IMG/VR virus record: IMGVR_UViG_3300050821_008264
Span: 1-47,698 of that record
Direction: 5' to 3' (one strand)
DNA: 47,698 nt
Origin: a virus
Positions 24,669 to 47,465 of this stretch are shown here, piece by piece. A program made the translations under genes and the position numbers. Every line of letters starts with the position of its first letter. Within the stretch, counting starts at the first letter, position 1. The notes under the pieces were generated by a model, which saw only the letters and a program-made list of their open reading frames with translations, searched no databases and had not been told where the DNA came from.

Positions 24669-26237
24669 TCATGTGCCCCGGAATCGTTTGCGCACCACCG
24701 GCTGATACTTCTTCCGCTCCTCCGCTTCATATTTCTGCGCCAGGATTGCACGGCTCGTAGGATCCAGCGGGCGCCCCTGATTCCTCTCCGCCGTCTGCAT
24801 CCGCTCATGTAAGGTCACTTCCAGAGGCTTACGATTCGGCCCGCCAAACATCGCATACAGGCCGTACCCGCTTGATTGCAGCGGGTCATCCCCAAGAAAT
24901 TCCGCAATTTCTTCACGGTTTTTCTCATCCCGCGGCGCGCGCGGTATCGTCCGAATCAGGTTCTTGCAGCTATCCGCAATCTGTAGCTTCGCAACCCGGA
25001 CCGGCTCGCTCTTACCCGTTCCGTCATTGAAAATCTGCCCGGTTGCAACGCGCCCCTTCAGATAATCGTAAAGAACCTGCTCGCGTCCGGGCTTGTCCTT
25101 AGTCGACCTAGCGGGAGCCACCATTCCCGCCGCCTGTAGCACCGCGCCCATGCGTAGCGCAATCGGGTTTGTGTCCTGCCGTTCCGCGAACGCATCATGC
25201 GAAAACGAAAACATTTCATAGTTTTCGCACTGCGTTCCAATCTTTCCAGTTACCAGCGCGTGAAGCTTTCGGCTCTCCTCAACGATTCGCTCGCCCAGCT
25301 CTTCCGGCGTGTGCCGGTTCACCACCAGCTCATGGTAAATCCGGGCAATGCCTAGATCATCCAGGCAGAACCAGTGCACCACCGAGTTGTGGTCAAATCC
25401 CCAATCGCCGCCCAGCCAGCGCTTCCACCAACGCTCTAGCTTTACTGTGCTGGGATCGTAAACGTTTAGCGCTTCGTCCCAAGCGCCCTCGAAGTACCCG
25501 CCGGCCACGCCCCAGATTCCTTCTTTCAGCGCCCGGCTAACCTCCGCCTGATAGCTGTCCAGGTTCGCGATGTACCGCGGATCGTTCGCGTAAACCGGAT
25601 TGTCCCGGTACGTCGCCGGAAAATATTTGTAGTCCTCCGGCTTGTACTGGGCCCGCTGATTCGGCGTCATCTCCGCGCACGGCTGATTCTTCACAAAGAC
25701 GTCTTCCACCCACTGCGCGCCAATCCCGATCGGATTGGTTGCGCCGTCTTTCGTGCAGTTCGGCGCTACCGGGCAGCGATTCCACGCGGAAATGTTCTGC
25801 CACTGCCCAAACGTGAACTCCGTCAGCTCGTCATAGCCGATTTTGTACCACTGCCCCTGATAGCCCCATACATCGTGCTCGTACTGCATGGAGCCAAATT
25901 TCGTTGTCGCGCCATTCCGCCAAGTGACAACGCCCTGCGTCTCATTGAACGACCGGTACAGCTCGCGAGGAATCTCTTCGCGAAAGCGCGTTATCACCGT
26001 ATCGCGCAGCTTCGGATTTGTGCGCCGCAGAATCAGCGTGTGCACCTTCGCCGCGTCGTCCACACTGAAGCGATTGCAGTGCAGCATCTGATCCACGATC
26101 AGACACAGCGTCTTCCCCGGCCCAGCCGCTCCGCCTAGCAAACGGTGCTGTGCTCGCGAACCGTGAAACGCTTTTTGATGGGGATACGGGTCCCACCGGT
26201 AAACGAACCGGTCTACCGCATCGGAAACTTGCACCAT
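24669..26237 (-). CDS. terL: Terminase large subunit
   Basis: A 522-residue protein. Walker A GGAAGPGKT at residues 35-43, Walker B IGYDEL near 133-138 with the catalytic Glu, and a C-terminal RNase H-like nuclease starting WLGGDWGFDHNS near 280. This is the ATP-driven packaging motor that cuts and translocates DNA into the procapsid via the portal. It follows the small terminase candidate through three tiny genes and abuts the membrane peptide gene upstream. Confidence 0.92.
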   Translation of the reverse strand: MVQVSDAVDRFVYRWDPYPHQKAFHGSRAQHRLLGGAAGPGKTLCLIVDQMLHCNRFSVDDAAKVHTLILRRTNPKLRDTVITRFREEIPRELYRSFNETQGVVTWRNGATTKFGSMQYEHDVWGYQGQWYKIGYDELTEFTFGQWQNISAWNRCPVAPNCTKDGATNPIGIGAQWVEDVFVKNQPCAEMTPNQRAQYKPEDYKYFPATYRDNPVYANDPRYIANLDSYQAEVSRALKEGIWGVAGGYFEGAWDEALNVYDPSTVKLERWWKRWLGGDWGFDHNSVVHWFCLDDLGIARIYHELVVNRHTPEELGERIVEESRKLHALVTGKIGTQCENYEMFSFSHDAFAERQDTNPIALRMGAVLQAAGMVAPARSTKDKPGREQVLYDYLKGRVATGQIFNDGTGKSEPVRVAKLQIADSCKNLIRTIPRAPRDEKNREEIAEFLGDDPLQSSGYGLYAMFGGPNRKPLEVTLHERMQTAERNQGRPLDPTSRAILAQKYEAEERKKYQPVVRKRFRGT

Positions 26238-37843: not shown

Positions 37844-38344
37844 CTACAGCGGTAGCAGACGCAACTTTCCCCCGCTCTCCTCAATCAGCCCCGCAGAATT
37901 CAGCTTGCTAATGTTCGCCCGATAATTCCCGCTACCGCGGTCCTGCTTTGTGAACGCCGCGAGTTGCGTGCGCGATAACCCGCCTTCGTACGTCAGCAGA
38001 CAGTCAATCATGTCCGCGCACTTGCCGGGATATTTCCGCTTCCACGGCTCCCATTTCGCTGGATCTAGTGGCGCGCGCCCCCCGCCATCATCCGTCCCGC
38101 CTCCCCGCGTCGCATCGGTCGGGATGTTCGCCGAGTCCAGCTCTCCGAACACCATCCGCAACGCGACGTGCAACGGCTCAAGCTCGCGCCGCAGTCGCGA
38201 TAGCGCAATCCCCGCCTTTGTGTCGCGGGAGTTCGCCTGCGCAAGCTGCGCCTTTAGCTCAGCAACTTCCGTCTCGAGCTCCTCAATCCGCTTCCGCAGC
38301 AAATCGCGTTCGCCAGGCTCCGGCGAATTAAGAAGTCGTTGCAC
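37844..38344 (-). CDS. Coiled-coil plus winged-helix protein
   Basis: A 166-residue protein. Leucine-rich coiled coil at about residues 15-60 (IEELETEVAELKAQLAQ), a disordered Gly/Asp linker, then a C-terminal winged helix (GGLSRTQLAAFTKQ ... ISKLNSAGLIEESGGKL). A dimeric DNA-binding regulator or replication protein is likely. The ATG at 38344 overlaps the J-domain gene by 17 bases. Confidence 0.55.
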   Translation of the reverse strand: MQRLLNSPEPGERDLLRKRIEELETEVAELKAQLAQANSRDTKAGIALSRLRRELEPLHVALRMVFGELDSANIPTDATRGGGTDDGGGRAPLDPAKWEPWKRKYPGKCADMIDCLLTYEGGLSRTQLAAFTKQDRGSGNYRANISKLNSAGLIEESGGKLRLLPL

Positions 38345-38948
38345 TGGATTTCTCCGCTATCGCCTCGAAGCCCTTGAAAGCCCGTTCCAGCAACGAAGAC
38401 GTTCCGCAGCGTTCCATCTGCCGCAGCGCCGCGATCGTCAGCCGGATCGCCGTAATGTTCCAGCGCACCTCTTTGAACGTGTCGCACGCGATCACATATT
38501 GGTGGTCCTGGTGCTCCCGCTGATTCACCCAGGCCCGCGCTTTGTCACGCGCGGCCGTGATCATCTTGAACGTTTCGATGTCCCCGCCCGAATCCGGATG
38601 GTGCAGCCGCGCCTTATCGCGATACGCGCGATCAATCATCTCCAGCGATGGCGCCGGGTCGTTGATCCCTAAAATGTCTTGCCAGGTGTAGTCCTCCTTC
38701 AACTTGCGAGAGAAGTACAGCGCCACGCCCGGATCCCGCGGCTCCTGCACCGTTTGCAGCGCGCCGCTAAACTTCGTCGGAATGTTCGTGGAAATGAGCA
38801 TCGATTCCACGTCCCACCGCTCCAGCTCCTTCACCAGCAAGTCCCGCGAATCATTCGCGTTTTTCTTCCAGGCCGCTTGCGCCTTCCGGTCCTGAATGCG
38901 CATGCGCACCCAGCCCTCCGGCCATGCCAACGGATACGCTTCTTTCAC
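38328..38948 (-). CDS. J-domain (DnaJ-like) protein
   Basis: A 206-residue protein. The GTG at 38948 has AGGAG five bases upstream; the longer ATG frame overlaps another gene. Around residues 95-135, TWQDILGI, helix II (MIDRAYRDKARLH), the HPD motif at about 117-119 and helix III (TFKMITAARDKARAW) form a J domain, which stimulates the ATPase of Hsp70/DnaK. The N-terminal 85 residues are unassigned, and the C-terminal part is helical. Phage replication (lambda O/P) depends on host DnaJ/DnaK, so a self-made J protein may serve replication or assembly. Confidence 0.7.
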   Translation of the reverse strand: MKEAYPLAWPEGWVRMRIQDRKAQAAWKKNANDSRDLLVKELERWDVESMLISTNIPTKFSGALQTVQEPRDPGVALYFSRKLKEDYTWQDILGINDPAPSLEMIDRAYRDKARLHHPDSGGDIETFKMITAARDKARAWVNQREHQDHQYVIACDTFKEVRWNITAIRLTIAALRQMERCGTSSLLERAFKGFEAIAEKSSATTS

Positions 38949-38958
38949 GTTTTCTCCT

Positions 38959-39282
38959 TTACGAAAGTGGCTCCCAATAACTCGGATGAAAATCTTTCGG
39001 TCGCTTGTAACCGTCCGGCAGCACGCGCAACAGTCGGCCACCATTGACAAAGCGCATCAGAGTTCCGTATTCGGCACCGCGCTTCAACTTGTGCCCGGTA
39101 TCGCGTATCGGATTCCACCGCAGGGGCAAAGTTCTCCCCTTCATCAGAATGGCTAGCAAGGAGTCCATTCGCCGATTCGTTGGCTCAACGACTTCGCGCA
39201 TATATTTCATTTGGGCACGCCAGACTGCTCGCGTGTTGGCTGCTTTCTTTGCGGCCCTTCGTCGCCGTTCTTTCTTAGTCAT
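38959..39282 (-). CDS. Basic hypothetical protein
   Basis: A 107-residue protein; the start at 39282 overlaps the previous stop as ATGA. Lys/Arg-rich helical N-terminus (MTKKERRRRAAKKAANT), then a mixed region ending in DFHPSYWEPLS. Possibly DNA- or RNA-binding. Not recognised. Confidence 0.5.
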   Translation of the reverse strand: MTKKERRRRAAKKAANTRAVWRAQMKYMREVVEPTNRRMDSLLAILMKGRTLPLRWNPIRDTGHKLKRGAEYGTLMRFVNGGRLLRVLPDGYKRPKDFHPSYWEPLS

Positions 39283-39587
39283 GCCGCCTCCGCCTTTCGC
39301 GAGACCCGATACTCCCAAAGCCCATCGCGCGGCTCGCCCCGCCGCCGCTTCTGGACGTCGCACAACGGACCGCCATACCCGCCCGTCCCGTTCCGCAAAT
39401 GTCGCAGCTGCGCGCTTACGCTCGCCGGCGGATACCCTGTCATCTCCGCTATCTCTGCCAGCGTCAGCCAGCAACTTGTGCCGCTTTTCGGGCCTGGCTC
39501 GCCAAGCTGCAACATCACCGCCCGGATCACGTCCCGCTGCCGCTCCAGCCGCGGCGCGTCCAGCTCCAAGCTGTATTGCTCGCTCAT
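39279..39587 (-). CDS. Winged helix-turn-helix DNA-binding protein
   Basis: A 102-residue protein. WLTLAEIAEMTGYPPASVSAQ is a clear helix-turn-helix, followed by RHLRN, a wing with Gly, and GLWEYRVSRK as the last strand. This layout is common in small phage transcription or replication regulators. It starts with an ATGA-coupled ATG. Confidence 0.7.
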   Translation of the reverse strand: MSEQYSLELDAPRLERQRDVIRAVMLQLGEPGPKSGTSCWLTLAEIAEMTGYPPASVSAQLRHLRNGTGGYGGPLCDVQKRRRGEPRDGLWEYRVSRKAEAA

Positions 39588-40088: not shown

Positions 40089-41354
40089 TTAGGTCTCCGC
40101 CACTGGCCGATATTGCTTGGCTACGTCGAAGCCGAAGGTCCACGCTACGGCGTCATCGGCGCGCTTAATGGCTGGCGGCACGCGCAAGAAATAAATTCGG
40201 CCTGTCGATGGATCCGTTACGCGGACCGCGCGCAGAACGCGCTCCGGATCGCCCGGCAAGTCGATTGAGAACAGGTCGCCCATTTCGTGCGTGTGGATCT
40301 GCTTGGCGCCGGCTTCGCCAAGGAAGCGTTCCATACCAATACGCTCCATCATTACGCGGCGCACTTCAGTGTTTTGCTCGGCGAGAATTTCCTTGGCGGA
40401 TATTGTTTCGGGTTGTTCGATTACGCGCTGGTCGACGCGCACGCCGTGCCACGCCCAGATGCCCCAGCCATCTCCATAGCCGATCGCCTGGCCGGCTGGA
40501 TTGTGCAGGCGGCTTTCCGCGTCCACCTTGCAAACGGTATAGCGTTCAGATGCCAGCGCGATGCCGTCATATGGAAACCACCAATGCAGATGCCGAGATT
40601 GATGCAGCCACAAGTCGAGGAGCTCTGAATCTTTCTCCGCGTACTTGACGCCGATTTCTTCGCAGAAACGGTAGAAGACTTCCCATGCGCACCAGTGATG
40701 GCCACCCAAAATGTTGTTGAGCTGGCTCCCGAGCTGGCTCTCGAGCTGGCTCCTGAGCTGGCTCCTGAGCTGGCTCCAGAGCTGGCTCCTGAGCTGGCTC
40801 CAGAGCTGGCTCCTGAGCTGGCTCCCGAGCTGGCTCTCGAGCTGGCTCCCGAGCTGGCTCCTGAGCTGGCTCTCGAGCTGGCTCCAGAGCTGGCTCCTGA
40901 GCTGGCTCCTGAGCTGGCTCCAGAGCTGGCTCTCGAGCTGGCTCCCGAGCTGGCTCTCGAGCTGGCTCCAGAGCTGGCTCTCGAGCTGGCTCCTGAGCTG
41001 GCTCCTGAGCTGGCTCTCGAGCTGGCTCCAGAGCTGGCTCTCGAGCTGGCTCCCGAGCTGGCTCCTGAGCTGGCTCCAGAGCTGGCTCCTGAGCTGGCTC
41101 CCGAGCTGGCTCCCGAGCTTTGTTGTGGAAAAATTTTTCAAAACCGCCCAGGCAAGAATGCACATCATCGGCGAACCAAAGAAAAGTACGACCGGCTTTG
41201 GCTTGCCGATGCGTGCGTAGAATTCGCCGATGATGGCCTCACACTCTTTGCGGTTTAGGGGCGCCGTCGAGTAGCCGATCGAGAGCCATTCCGACCGCAA
41301 ATCGATAAGGCGCTTTTCCTGCTCCTCGGTCAGTTCGGTGACCTTCTTCGGCAT
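40089..41354 (-). CDS. DUF6745-like protein with 33 tetrapeptide repeats
   Basis: A 421-residue protein. The N-terminal 80 residues (NRKECEAIIGEFYARIGKPKP, FGSPMM) and the C-terminal 200 (SRLHNPAGQAIGYGDGW, IWAWHGVRVDQRVIEQPE, NTEVRRVMMERIGMERFL, FLRVPP, AVAWTFGF) match my memory of DUF6745, a widespread family of unknown function. Between them residues 81-212 are 33 copies of xSQL with x = Arg (11), Glu (8), Trp (7) or Gly (7). The 4-residue period suggests a beta-solenoid or other regular fold. It follows the GEATGHxHR/QREY gene by 9 bases. Confidence 0.7.
   Translation of the reverse strand: MPKKVTELTEEQEKRLIDLRSEWLSIGYSTAPLNRKECEAIIGEFYARIGKPKPVVLFFGSPMMCILAWAVLKNFSTTKLGSQLGSQLRSQLWSQLRSQLGSQLESQLWSQLESQLRSQLRSQLESQLWSQLESQLGSQLESQLWSQLRSQLRSQLWSQLESQLRSQLGSQLESQLGSQLRSQLWSQLRSQLWSQLRSQLRSQLESQLGSQLNNILGGHHWCAWEVFYRFCEEIGVKYAEKDSELLDLWLHQSRHLHWWFPYDGIALASERYTVCKVDAESRLHNPAGQAIGYGDGWGIWAWHGVRVDQRVIEQPETISAKEILAEQNTEVRRVMMERIGMERFLGEAGAKQIHTHEMGDLFSIDLPGDPERVLRAVRVTDPSTGRIYFLRVPPAIKRADDAVAWTFGFDVAKQYRPVAET
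40719..41114. repeat. 33 x 12-bp tandem repeat inside the DUF6745-like gene
   Basis: Each 12-bp unit on the plus strand is GAGCTGGCTC plus a variable dinucleotide that is only CT, CA, CC or TC. In the coding strand this gives SQL plus a codon AGG, TGG, GGG or GAG. The constant part has GAGC/GCTC arms, so both strands stay open in several frames. The unit has exactly 12 bases throughout, with no frame-breaking change. Confidence 0.95.
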
Positions 41355-41363
41355 AGCGGCTCC

Positions 41364-41687
41364 TCAGTCCGCAACGTTGCGGATTTCTTCCGGGCTGTAC
41401 TCCCGCTGGCGCACCACATCGTAGTTACCGGCAGGCAGGATAATGGGCTTGTGCTCTTCGTGAACGATGGCTACGCCGTCTTCTGAGGCAGACAAAAACA
41501 GCCTGTCCTCTACCTCATAGACTTCGGCGATGGCTAGCGAAGTTTCCGCCACGCGGTGTACGTGCCCGGTCGCTTCCCCTTCGAGAATGCGACCGTCCTT
41601 GCGGACCATCCGCTTCCCCGCTGGCGCGCACGCCCTGGCGATAAACAGCACATCTCCCTGCCTGTACTGCTTCTTCTCGATGTTCAT
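41364..41687 (-). CDS. GEATGHxHR / QREY-motif partner protein
   Basis: A 107-residue beta-rich protein starting MNIEKKQYRQGDVLF (start chosen at 41687, after AAAAGGGAA). Motifs: EGEATGHVHR near residues 37-46, IVHEEHKPIILPAGNYDV, then QREYSPEEIRNVAD at the C-terminus. From memory, proteins with this set of motifs often neighbour DUF6745 genes, so the pair may be a functional unit. The several conserved His and Glu could bind metal. Function unknown. Confidence 0.65.
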   Translation of the reverse strand: MNIEKKQYRQGDVLFIARACAPAGKRMVRKDGRILEGEATGHVHRVAETSLAIAEVYEVEDRLFLSASEDGVAIVHEEHKPIILPAGNYDVVRQREYSPEEIRNVAD

Positions 41688-41842: not shown

Positions 41843-42583
41843 TTACTTTGCGCGGCCCGTCATGCGCACAAATTGCTGCTCTTCCTCCAGCACGTCCAGC
41901 AGCACCTTGTCCACCACCGCCTCATACTCTTTCGCCTCATACAGCTTCGGCACCACCGCGCCACTCACCTTGTGCGGCTCGATCCCTAATCCCAGGCTCG
42001 CTTCCGTGCAGCTCACCATAATGTCCCGCGAACCCGCGAACAGATGGCAGTACTTGTGCATGCAGTCGAACACCGCTTGCTCCGGATTCAGCAGCGTGTC
42101 CGGAATCGGCATCTTGCGCCGCGCCCATGCGCGCCGCACCGCCGGCAAATCAAAATCCCGGATGTTGAATCCCGCAATCACCGTGTCCCCATCCACCTTC
42201 TTCTGGAACAGCGCCCACAGCATTCCCAGCATCGTTTGCTCGTCCGCAAACCCTTCCACCAACCCGCCTAGCCGCTGCATCGGCGCGTGCTCCCACATCG
42301 GATGCAAACACCGCAGCTCGTTCTCGCTCTTGATCCCCACCGCGATAATCGGCGAACACGGCAGTAGCGAAGCCTTCTCCTTGCACTTCTCAAACGCCTC
42401 CGCTTTGTGCGCCTTGATCTTCGCCGGATCCTTGTAATTCGACGGCGCCCGGTACGTCGTCTCGAACCACGCTTTCACTTCCTCGTCCGACGCATACGAC
42501 GTCTCAATGTCCAGAATGATGTAGTCGTACGCCTCGCGAACCATCGGCGCGCCCCACCCCGGCGCCATTGCCGGTGCGGCCAT
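41843..42583 (-). CDS. DnaQ-like 3'-5' exonuclease
   Basis: A 246-residue protein. ILDIET at residues 23-28 (Asp and Glu of Exo I), AGFNIRDFDLP at 137-147 (Exo II Asp) and a C-terminal helix with YEAVVDKVLLDV supplying the last Asp fit the DEDD exonuclease fold, closest in feel to the family-B polymerase-like exonucleases found alone in phages. It would trim 3' ends in replication or recombination. It is next to the glycine-rich protein gene (3-base gap), a pairing reminiscent of recombination modules. Confidence 0.75.
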   Translation of the reverse strand: MAAPAMAPGWGAPMVREAYDYIILDIETSYASDEEVKAWFETTYRAPSNYKDPAKIKAHKAEAFEKCKEKASLLPCSPIIAVGIKSENELRCLHPMWEHAPMQRLGGLVEGFADEQTMLGMLWALFQKKVDGDTVIAGFNIRDFDLPAVRRAWARRKMPIPDTLLNPEQAVFDCMHKYCHLFAGSRDIMVSCTEASLGLGIEPHKVSGAVVPKLYEAKEYEAVVDKVLLDVLEEEQQFVRMTGRAK

Positions 42584-45204: not shown

Positions 45205-45408
45205 TCACCGTTGGACGAAATTGGACGCCATTAGACGAATTTGTTCCGGAACCCGCTTGCCCATCCTCCGCACCATGTGGTGTGCTCCCACGGCCATGCA
45301 GTCCCGCGCCACGTCCTGTATCCGCTGCCGACGCAACGTCGCCACCGCACGCACCGTCATGTCCAGCTCGCTGTCCACCCGGATCCATAGCTTTTGGTCC
45401 AACTTCAT
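45205..45408 (-). CDS. Ribbon-helix-helix-like small DNA-binding protein
   Basis: A 67-residue protein: KLWIRVDSELDMTVRAVATLRRQRIQDVARDC has the strand-helix-helix pattern of Arc/MetJ regulators. The start overlaps the stop of the excisionase-like gene by one base. The three short TTGGACGAAA-like repeats near its end (45210-45240) are within its coding region. Likely an early regulator. Confidence 0.5.
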   Translation of the reverse strand: MKLDQKLWIRVDSELDMTVRAVATLRRQRIQDVARDCMAVGAHHMVRRMGKRVPEQIRLMASNFVQR

Positions 45409-45641
45409 CAGCTCGCCTTCCTCATCGCCGCAAAATTGCTCGCCTTCCTCATCGCCGCAAAATTGCTCTGCACACTGTGCTTCCGTACCACCGCGTTCAA
45501 GTCCGTCTCCCGCACCAGCACGATCCCCCGCCGCGGATTGTCCGGCAGCACAAACCCCATCTCCACCAGCCACCGCCGCAGCGTCTTCCGATCCACCCCC
45601 ACCATCGCCGCCGCCGCCGCCAGCGAATAATGCTTCTCCAT
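45408..45641 (-). CDS. Excisionase / MerR-like helix-turn-helix protein
   Basis: A 77-residue protein: AAAAMVGVDRKTLRRWLVEMG is a MerR/Xis type helix-turn-helix, followed by a wing (RRGIVLVRETDL). The C-terminus repeats NFAAMRKAS twice because of a 27-bp tandem duplication. It is coupled to the repressor gene by TGATG. It could be the excisionase, an anti-repressor or a Cro-like regulator. Confidence 0.65.
   Translation of the reverse strand: MEKHYSLAAAAAMVGVDRKTLRRWLVEMGFVLPDNPRRGIVLVRETDLNAVVRKHSVQSNFAAMRKASNFAAMRKAS
45411..45464. repeat. 27-bp tandem duplication in the HTH gene
   Basis: Bases 45411-45437 and 45438-45464 are identical (GCTCGCCTTCCTCATCGCCG and 7 more bases). The unit is 9 codons, so frame is kept. 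Likely a recent slippage event. Confidence 0.9.
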
Positions 45642-45856
45642 CACGCCGCCACCGCCGGGTAATACCCGTGCCGATTCAGAAACGCTACAATCCGAGCCTC
45701 TGTAGTGGGATTCGGCTTCACTTTTTCCTGCTCGATCTTCCACAACCCAGACGGGCTCATCTTCAGCGCCTTGGCCATCTGCGTCAGCGACAGCTTCCTC
45801 TCTGCCCGGCACCGGAGAATCATTTTGGCCAGCTCTTCCTGTGGTGTGCTGTGCAT
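45641..45856 (-). CDS. XRE-family repressor-like protein
   Basis: A 71-residue protein from ATG 45856 (MHSTPQEE). AERKLSLTQMAKALKMSPSGLWKIEQ is a lambda-type helix-turn-helix; the rest is a short helical end, with no protease or dimer domain, so it resembles Cro or a minimal repressor. Divergent to the plus-strand RHH gene across 67 bases. A perfect TTGACA with a 17-base spacer to TAGTGT puts the start of transcription at or next to the ATG, suggesting a leaderless message. Confidence 0.7.
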   Translation of the reverse strand: MHSTPQEELAKMILRCRAERKLSLTQMAKALKMSPSGLWKIEQEKVKPNPTTEARIVAFLNRHGYYPAVAA

Positions 45857-45931
45857 ACGGGGCACACTACGCCTGCAAAGAATACGTGTCAAGTCTTTTT
45901 TTGACTTTTTTTACTGGTGTACTATGCACTC
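45842..45931. promoter_or_regulatory. Divergent switch region with paired operator-like repeats
   Basis: TGGTGTGCTGTGCATAC (45842-45858) and TGGTGTACTATGCACTC (45915-45931) match at 13 of 17 positions and each covers one of the two start codons. Between them, minus-strand TTGACA (45892-45887), 17 bases and TAGTGT (45869-45864) form a repressor promoter. GTGTGC (45844-45849) and GCACAC (45862-45867) form an inverted repeat. Likely the lysogeny/lysis switch. Confidence 0.5.
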
Positions 45932-46323: not shown

Positions 46324-46431
46324 ATGTGGTGGCAATTTGCTATCGGTTATGTGGTTGGCCGCATCGTCTATAGCGTCCTACGTCTGCTCGTTGAAAACTA
46401 CATCGTGGATTTTTCGCGCGCCCGGCGATGA
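46324..46431 (+). CDS. 35-residue membrane peptide coupled to integrase
   Basis: Encodes MWWQFAIGYVVGRIVYSVLR and a short charged end. One membrane or amphipathic segment. Its stop overlaps the integrase start as ATGA, so the integrase is probably translated by coupling to it. Not recognised. Confidence 0.55.
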   Translation: MWWQFAIGYVVGRIVYSVLRLLVENYIVDFSRARR

Positions 46432-47465
46432 TCACCCTCTACAAACGAGGGCGCGTCTTCTGGGCACAGTCCAACTTCCACGGCGTCCGCAAACAATGGT
46501 CCCTGCAAACGCGCGACCGCTCCGTCGCCGTGGAACTCCTCCGCCAGGCTCAGTTGGATGAACTCTCCGGAAAGGCTTACAAGCAGAAATCGTGGCAGGA
46601 CTTCAAAGAAGAATTTCTATCGTGGATCGAACCGCAAGTCGCTCCCCACACCTACAAGGAATACGCCCGCGTCCTCAAACTGTTTTCCAATTTTCTAGCG
46701 AATCTTGGTATCGCTCAAGTGGGCAACTGCGTACCAGAGACGATCACCGCGTTTACGCACGAACGTTCGCGCAGCCAGCACAGAATAAACCGACGAGCGA
46801 TGACGACTGGAGGCATTAAGTTTGAGTTGCGTATCCTCCACCGCGTTTTCGCGCATGCGCTGGAGCATGGGTACATCGCAAGGAACCCGGTCACGGCCAA
46901 AAATCTCGGCAGCACTTCCGGCAAGACGTTGCCATTCTCCCTCGACGAGATACGTACGATGCTCGAATGTCCGTACCTCAAAGTCAAACCTTACCTCAAG
47001 GCAATCATCCTGCTCTTTCTCCACACTGGCCTGCGCATCAGCGACGTGATCCATCTGCAACGCTCCTCGATCGCCAACGGAATCCTACACCTCAAAACCA
47101 AAAAGCGCGGCACCATCGTCCGACTCCCGCTCCATCCCGACGTCCTGGCGGCCATTAAAGAATTAAAAATGACAAAATCCCCCTACGTGTTCACCACCGC
47201 CGCCGGCCGGCCCATCGTCTCGCTCGACAAGCATCTCCGCCGCCTCTGGAAAGCTTGCGGGATCTCCGGCGGCCACGCGCACCGCTTCCGCGATACCTTC
47301 GCCGTCAATCTCCTCGAGCACGGCGCAACCCTCTACGACGTCGCCAAGCTTCTCGGCATCTCCCACCAAACCGCCGAACGCCACTACACCCCTTACGTGA
47401 AAGAACTCCAGGAACGCGGCGCCCGCCTGATCCATTCCCTAGACTACAAAGTCAAACATGCTTGA
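46428..47465 (+). CDS. int: Tyrosine integrase
   Basis: A 345-residue protein: N-terminal arm-binding-like region, a SAM-like core-binding domain (about 55-155) and a catalytic domain with Arg203 (GLRISDV), Lys in TKKRG (about 226), HAHRFRDT (H285, R288) and Tyr320 (ERHY). The usual second His (LGH) is Ile (LLGIS). It joins attP with attB in the host tRNA-Thr gene. It lies 137 bases before the att repeat and is transcribed toward it. Its last codons overlap an 18-bp palindrome. Confidence 0.9.
   Translation: MITLYKRGRVFWAQSNFHGVRKQWSLQTRDRSVAVELLRQAQLDELSGKAYKQKSWQDFKEEFLSWIEPQVAPHTYKEYARVLKLFSNFLANLGIAQVGNCVPETITAFTHERSRSQHRINRRAMTTGGIKFELRILHRVFAHALEHGYIARNPVTAKNLGSTSGKTLPFSLDEIRTMLECPYLKVKPYLKAIILLFLHTGLRISDVIHLQRSSIANGILHLKTKKRGTIVRLPLHPDVLAAIKELKMTKSPYVFTTAAGRPIVSLDKHLRRLWKACGISGGHAHRFRDTFAVNLLEHGATLYDVAKLLGISHQTAERHYTPYVKELQERGARLIHSLDYKVKHA

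Follow-up and report, generated by a model that had tools for sequence, protein, structure and literature searches.

A phage-borne Q–DUF6745 gene pair with a hypervariable tetrapeptide array, and its relatives in phages, plasmids and bacterial chromosomes

Introduction

Hypervariable tetrapeptide proteins are already known in phages from one lineage, in which Tweety gp54, Che8 gp57 and PMC gp51 carry 15-48 tetrapeptide repeats between N- and C-terminal domains (PMC2884959, PMC9262239). Each repeat of Tweety gp54 has two invariant residues, while the variable ones are G/W/Q and S/Y (PMC2884959, PMC9262239), and the authors of the Tweety genome inferred for gp54 that selection acts on the protein (PMC2884959). 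Escape mutants of Tweety with an altered number of gp54 tetrapeptides gain counter-defence against Phrann gp29/gp30 (PMC9262239). VR2 of bbp36 in Bordetella phage BMP-1, as outlined in PMC2884959, is also made up of in-frame repeats, in numbers that vary between isolates.

The DUF6745 family (PF20530), many members of which contain short-repeat arrays, is likewise already known; Pfam gives it only as a domain of unknown function, and the literature we searched makes no mention of it. The same holds for the role of the STM4011-STM4015 locus (family identifiers NF038073, PRK08208, NF038075, NF038074 and NF038076), whose products are two radical SAM enzymes, an ATP-grasp protein, a hydrolase (STM4013) and an LRR/WGR protein (STM4015), and for which our searches returned no function. 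Here we describe a DUF6745 gene and its small partner, Q, in a stretch of 47,698 bases from an IMG/VR record, hereafter the window. The partnership of Q with DUF6745, the exchangeable front half of the DUF6745 protein, the hypervariability of its arrays and the link to STM4011-4015 all appear to be undescribed in the literature searched.

Results

The window derives from a temperate phage with an integrase, a CI-like repressor, an excisionase-like protein and a terminase (Table 1), and nearly all of its remaining genes are oriented leftward. Q and DUF6745 sit within the leftward early region, in keeping with the preliminary description, which had assigned them to a phage early operon; an exonuclease-like gene lies on one side of the pair and, beyond one small gene, a replication-initiation-like gene lies on the other. 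Q comes first and DUF6745 second on the same strand, with 9 bp between the Q stop and the DUF6745 start, and each gene is preceded by a purine-rich stretch resembling a Shine-Dalgarno sequence. Judging from the overlap of the second ribosome-binding site with the Q stop codon, the two genes are probably translationally coupled. Elsewhere in the window, the J-domain of DnaJ is weakly matched in an early-region protein (38328-39050, minus strand; E 8e-6, narrowly missing Pfam's cut-off), behind a phrog_9210 domain. The 3' end of the excisionase-like gene holds a perfect 27-bp tandem duplication (45411-45468, 2.1 copies), which doubles the residues SNFAAMRKA.

Table 1. Positions in the window of the Q–DUF6745 pair, its parts and the phage genes mentioned in the text.
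Feature	Position	Strand	Evidence
DUF6745 protein, 421 aa, second gene of the pair	40089..41354	-	PF20530 E 3.5e-40; phrog_31813 E 3e-7
C-terminal DUF6745 domain, residues ~222-421	40092..40691	-	PF20530; AF2 pLDDT mostly above 85
Array of 33 xSQL repeats, 12 bp each	40719-41119	-	TRF; per-codon table
N-terminal domain, residues 1-77	41124..41354	-	AF2 pLDDT ~79-96; N-profile matches in many relatives
Q stop codon and overlapping DUF6745 ribosome-binding site (gacTGAGGAGccgctATG)	41355..41372	-	sequence
Q, 107 aa, first gene of the pair	41364..41687	-	ORF
Replication-initiation-like HTH gene	39279-39587		
Exonuclease-like gene	41843-42583		RNase_H_2 E 8.6e-7
Terminase	24669-26237		
Excisionase-like protein	45408-45812		
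CI-like repressor	45641-45892		
Integrase	46428-47465		

The second protein of the pair, earlier called DUF6745-like, belongs to the family, its C-terminal 175 residues matching PF20530 (residues 248-421; 137.9 bits against Pfam's curated cut-off of 27). AF2 confidence is high for residues ~1-77 and ~222-410 (roughly 80-97) and mostly below 50 across the array, which is modelled as disordered or as a low-confidence helix; the PF20530 match and the confident stretches on both sides thus agree with the N- and C-domains that had been proposed to flank the repeats. A sequence search of the protein against solved structures gave chance-level matches only, and matches of the repeat region to trigger factor, a type I specificity subunit, MpsC and similar proteins were dismissed as low complexity.

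TRF reports a single array of period 12 (33.4 copies, score 620), which in frame comprises exactly 33 xSQL units (residues 80-211, 396 bp), a copy number that is read off a metagenome assembly and could be off in its exact value; TRF and the codon table agree in this with the repeat count and periodicity first noted. One and the same codon each for Leu, Ser and Gln is used in 33/33 copies, so that 9/12 bases are invariant, and the x codon always ends in G: AGG in 11 copies (R), GAG in 8 (E), GGG in 7 (G) and TGG in 7 (W). An array of this kind is far beyond chance, for similarly built arrays occur in relatives from some 40 phage contigs. The order of unit types is not distinguishable from random (longest repeated run 4 against a shuffle mean of 3.9, p 0.69), which leaves block duplication unsupported as the sole origin of this array; block duplication is evident in the arrays of L003, L027 and L036. 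No second copy of the array is present elsewhere in the window, and a diversity-generating retroelement was ruled out as the source of variation on the single criterion that the window holds no template copy.

The His/Glu motifs previously remarked on in the neighbouring gene are upheld by an alignment of 37 Q homologues. Q contains RQGDV, GEATGHxH, HEEH (HxxH) and, at the C-terminus, QREYSPEEIRNVAD (QREY), and the residues invariant in the alignment are G37, E38, T40, G41, H42, H44, H76, H79, G87 and D107. The window protein gives a full-length match to phrog_27831 (E 1e-11 over residues 6-107) and carries the invariant GE-TGH-H, H--H and C-terminal D by which we define the family; Asp is the final residue in 85/86 Q proteins. 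AF2 models Q as a small all-beta protein (pLDDT 84.5), with a tail that is conserved yet modelled at a pLDDT of about 50. Because four histidines and a glutamate are invariant, Q probably holds a metal site. PADLOC, NCBIfam and Pfam offer no name for Q, a sequence search against solved structures returned no matches, and Foldseek of the Q and DUF6745 models against the PDB gave nothing significant for either. In a viral structure library, the sole fold match of probability 1 to the Q model was the Acidianus rod-shaped virus 2 (rudivirus) protein A0A0N9P6K3, and this match is weak (E 0.014, TM 0.54, 17% identity).

Q and DUF6745 form one module, whose genes are linked and co-evolving. On viral contigs the DUF6745 C-domain as bait finds an adjacent Q and Q as bait finds DUF6745, wherever there is room on the contig, and in bacterial loci found with Q, DUF6745 lies alongside in 26/27, the remaining locus being at a contig end. 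All 80 non-redundant pairs (80/80) are co-directional, at most 180 bp apart and unfused (0 fusions), with Q upstream in 70/80; the window pair, adjacent and co-directional, is of this type. The co-occurrence in bacteria that the preliminary description had put forward is also seen among 542 random genomes of three phyla (bait genomes left out), where DUF6745 was found in 14, Q in 11 and both in 8 against 0.28 expected, a figure inflated by related Chloroflexota hits. Distances between Q proteins track those between DUF6745 tails (mirror-tree r 0.69; permutation maximum 0.23), and apparent loners of either gene are mostly contig ends or decayed fragments. The module is found in many phages and in bacteria of at least eight phyla, on prophages, plasmids and chromosomes; in Microcystis phage LMM01 the pair is MAP_175 and MAP_174. 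The two proteins, each modelled here as a single chain, probably form a physical complex, to which their co-evolution speaks indirectly. As a separate observation, Mycolicibacterium plasmid pCBMA213_1 (L139:2234-4555) encodes a protein of more than 750 aa with apparently two DUF6745 units, near which no Q was found.

What is constant in this module is Q together with the DUF6745 tail, and the front half of DUF6745 is swapped, as seen in two phage contigs and in the replacement of the array by leucine-rich repeats (LRRs). In the phage contigs L026 and L027, Q is 87.5% identical and the last 148 aa of DUF6745 are 78% identical, whereas the 385 residues at the front are unrelated; the array of one contig has 75 three-residue units and that of the other 58 four-residue units. 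The same C-terminal tail is fused to LPxGL leucine-rich repeats in Planctomycetota, Chloroflexota, Verrucomicrobiota, Hymenobacter, Lysobacterales and Deinococcus, and the LMM01, L083 and Streptomyces plasmid copies have neither LRR nor array. N-half types thus include xSQL, xDQV, xAAT, 3-mers and LRRs, with the last ~150 aa retained wherever the N-half is swapped. It had been proposed that homologues without the flanking domains would count against the original reading: such homologues do exist for the N-domain, many carrying LRRs in its place, and the C-terminal part is retained. As many homologues lack both the N-domain and the repeats, the essential core is therefore Q plus the C-terminal part of DUF6745, not the repeat.

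We compared 41 arrays, built on the scaffolds xSQL, xSAV, x[DA]SV, x[DA]QV, xAAT, [DA]A[RL] and others. Of the 158 columns at each codon position, 46, 59 and 8 vary at positions 1, 2 and 3, and extra alleles comprise 136 amino-acid versus 5 synonymous ones, the scaffold codons being almost invariant. Arrays on unlike scaffolds have arrived at a common residue chemistry, with Arg offered at the variable positions in 40/41 arrays, Asp or Glu in 41/41 and an aromatic residue in 35/41. Between L038 and L043, 2/264 nt differ before the array and 31/618 nt after it, the latter distributed 8/3/20 over codon positions 1/2/3, a pattern indicating purifying selection on the flanks; the arrays themselves have 27 and 30 copies in differing order, without synonymous changes. 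L030 and L032 are a few repeats apart and otherwise alike where comparable, a difference that assembly collapse could also produce. The array is thus a protein-level hypervariable element whose length and order change quickly. Homogenisation should clear diversity from all 12 bases alike, and only amino-acid-changing positions are mixed, which argues for selection at the protein level. Two further loci deserve mention: in L013:5119-7653 one Q is followed by two tandem DUF6745 genes with nearly identical C-domains and different xSAA arrays, and in Nocardia farcinica plasmid NZ_LN868940 (L134:573-1932) an x[DA]QV array is out of frame over much of the DUF6745 gene, the annotated CDS beginning inside the array, by slippage or sequencing error.

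Tweety gp54 resembles the DUF6745 protein in having two flanking domains around a tetrapeptide array, and its per-codon table, like that of the window array, shows amino-acid without synonymous variation, at codon positions 1 and 2 and not 3. However, its flanks have no detectable DUF6745 similarity and no Q lies nearby; hmmsearch of the Tweety region with the Q, C- and N-profiles gave nothing better than E 0.3, and homology was rejected. For these reasons gp54 supports the view that the window protein may work in a like manner, and not membership of one family; it is the closest experimental analogue, the functional analogy being one of repeat style alone. The BMP-1 VR2 array, compared by description only, is likewise an in-frame array of changing copy number in a phage gene, but its 24-bp units consist of a 19-bp repeat and a 5-bp spacer.

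Discussion

The reading we prefer, to which we give somewhat less than an even chance, is that Q and the DUF6745 protein form a complex with a constant core and a tunable, target-engaging half, serving the phage early in counter-defence or host take-over. The constant part would be Q (all-beta, with its putative metal site and conserved, Asp-ending tail) and the C-terminal ~150 residues of DUF6745, and the N-half would be an exchangeable element for engaging a target or for assembly, usually an LRR in chromosomes and, in phages, a small domain followed by an array of short repeats. Phage arrays nearly always present Arg together with acidic, aromatic and small residues, mixed over one or two positions of the unit. 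Made early, from an operon with exonuclease-like and replication-initiation-like genes, the pair would neutralise or redirect a host or competitor factor, and an altered copy number or order of repeats would re-tune spacing or binding, as in the Tweety gp54 copy-number mutants. The role in defence, counter-defence or host modification first suggested for the pair is plausible by analogy; counter-defence or host take-over as its purpose may be weakly inferred on the same grounds.

The strongest competing explanation comes from the STM4011-STM4015 locus, which neighbours chromosomal or plasmid pairs in Planctomycetota, Verrucomicrobiota, Lysobacterales, Deinococcota and Streptomyces. In our first genome set, STM401x genes lay within 6 kb of 12/12 LRR-type loci of Planctomycetes, Verrucomicrobia and Lysobacterales, with NCBIfam matches of E 1e-74 or better (in L068, STM4015 6.7e-93, STM4014 8e-99, STM4013 1e-112 and STM4012 7e-158; in L072, STM4011 4e-75). 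Two Streptomyces plasmids and one Deinococcus plasmid carry Q and DUF6745 directly alongside the STM4011-4015 genes, most or all of which are present (NCBI annotation). Of 201 Chloroflexota genomes, five have a strong STM4014 and all five carry Q and DUF6745, although the loci are far apart and the five are close relatives. Direct adjacency was noted in L068:5992-12212, L069, L072, L135, L137 and L138, from several phyla. The pair might accordingly belong to a pathway of post-translational or small-molecule modification, with Q as carrier or substrate, DUF6745 as adaptor and the phages holding a stand-alone version, a role that the conserved, Asp-ending Q tail of low predicted order would suit; however, STM401x genes are absent within 6 kb of the Hymenobacter LRR loci and absent near phage loci, the window pair included, and the literature found assigns STM4011-4015 no role. 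The phage pair therefore either works alone or borrows STM401x from its host. We regard a modification pathway as unlikely. Set against our preferred reading, the link to a radical-SAM/ATP-grasp operon in bacteria points as easily to such a pathway as to conflict.

Prophage-encoded defence or superinfection exclusion, in which the array or LRR half would sense an incoming phage component and Q plus the C-terminal core would be the effector, seems to us rather improbable. The pair's patchy occurrence (about 1-5% of genomes across three phyla), its presence on prophages, plasmids and chromosomes alike and the joining of a constant core to an LRR or hypervariable half are what one might expect of such a system, but there is no recognisable toxic domain, and PADLOC gave no credible defence-system match, only low-complexity ones to the repeat and its surroundings, with E values no better than 3e-4, and none for Q. 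Moreover, the large phage LMM01 carries the pair among DNA-replication genes, which fits a benefit to the phage during infection better than defence of a lysogen.

A view of the array as a minisatellite, selfish or neutral, within a linker that the protein could do without, of its diversity as mutational noise and of the gene as a passenger, is the least likely of these explanations and very improbable, because of the codon pattern (noise would strike third positions as well, and these vary in 8/158 columns against 46 and 59), the excess of amino-acid over synonymous alleles, the purifying selection on the flanks and the same residue chemistry reached by different scaffolds, even though copy number differs between close relatives, the array is predicted to be disordered or a low-confidence helix and the Nocardia plasmid copy has its array out of frame.

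A broader formulation of our preferred reading, in which a conserved core of Q and the DUF6745 tail would be aimed by an exchangeable half, phages would use a re-writable tetrapeptide array whose copy number and residue mix tune binding or self-assembly, and the bacterial counterpart would be the missing partner of STM4011-4015, is possible but doubtful. The findings reveal a widespread two-protein system, spread over phyla and phages and unnamed in the literature searched. The orphan STM4011-4015 operon gains two partners and an entry to its function, and the contrast between frozen scaffold codons and free chemistry at one or two positions makes repeat-array tuning testable outside mycobacteriophages.
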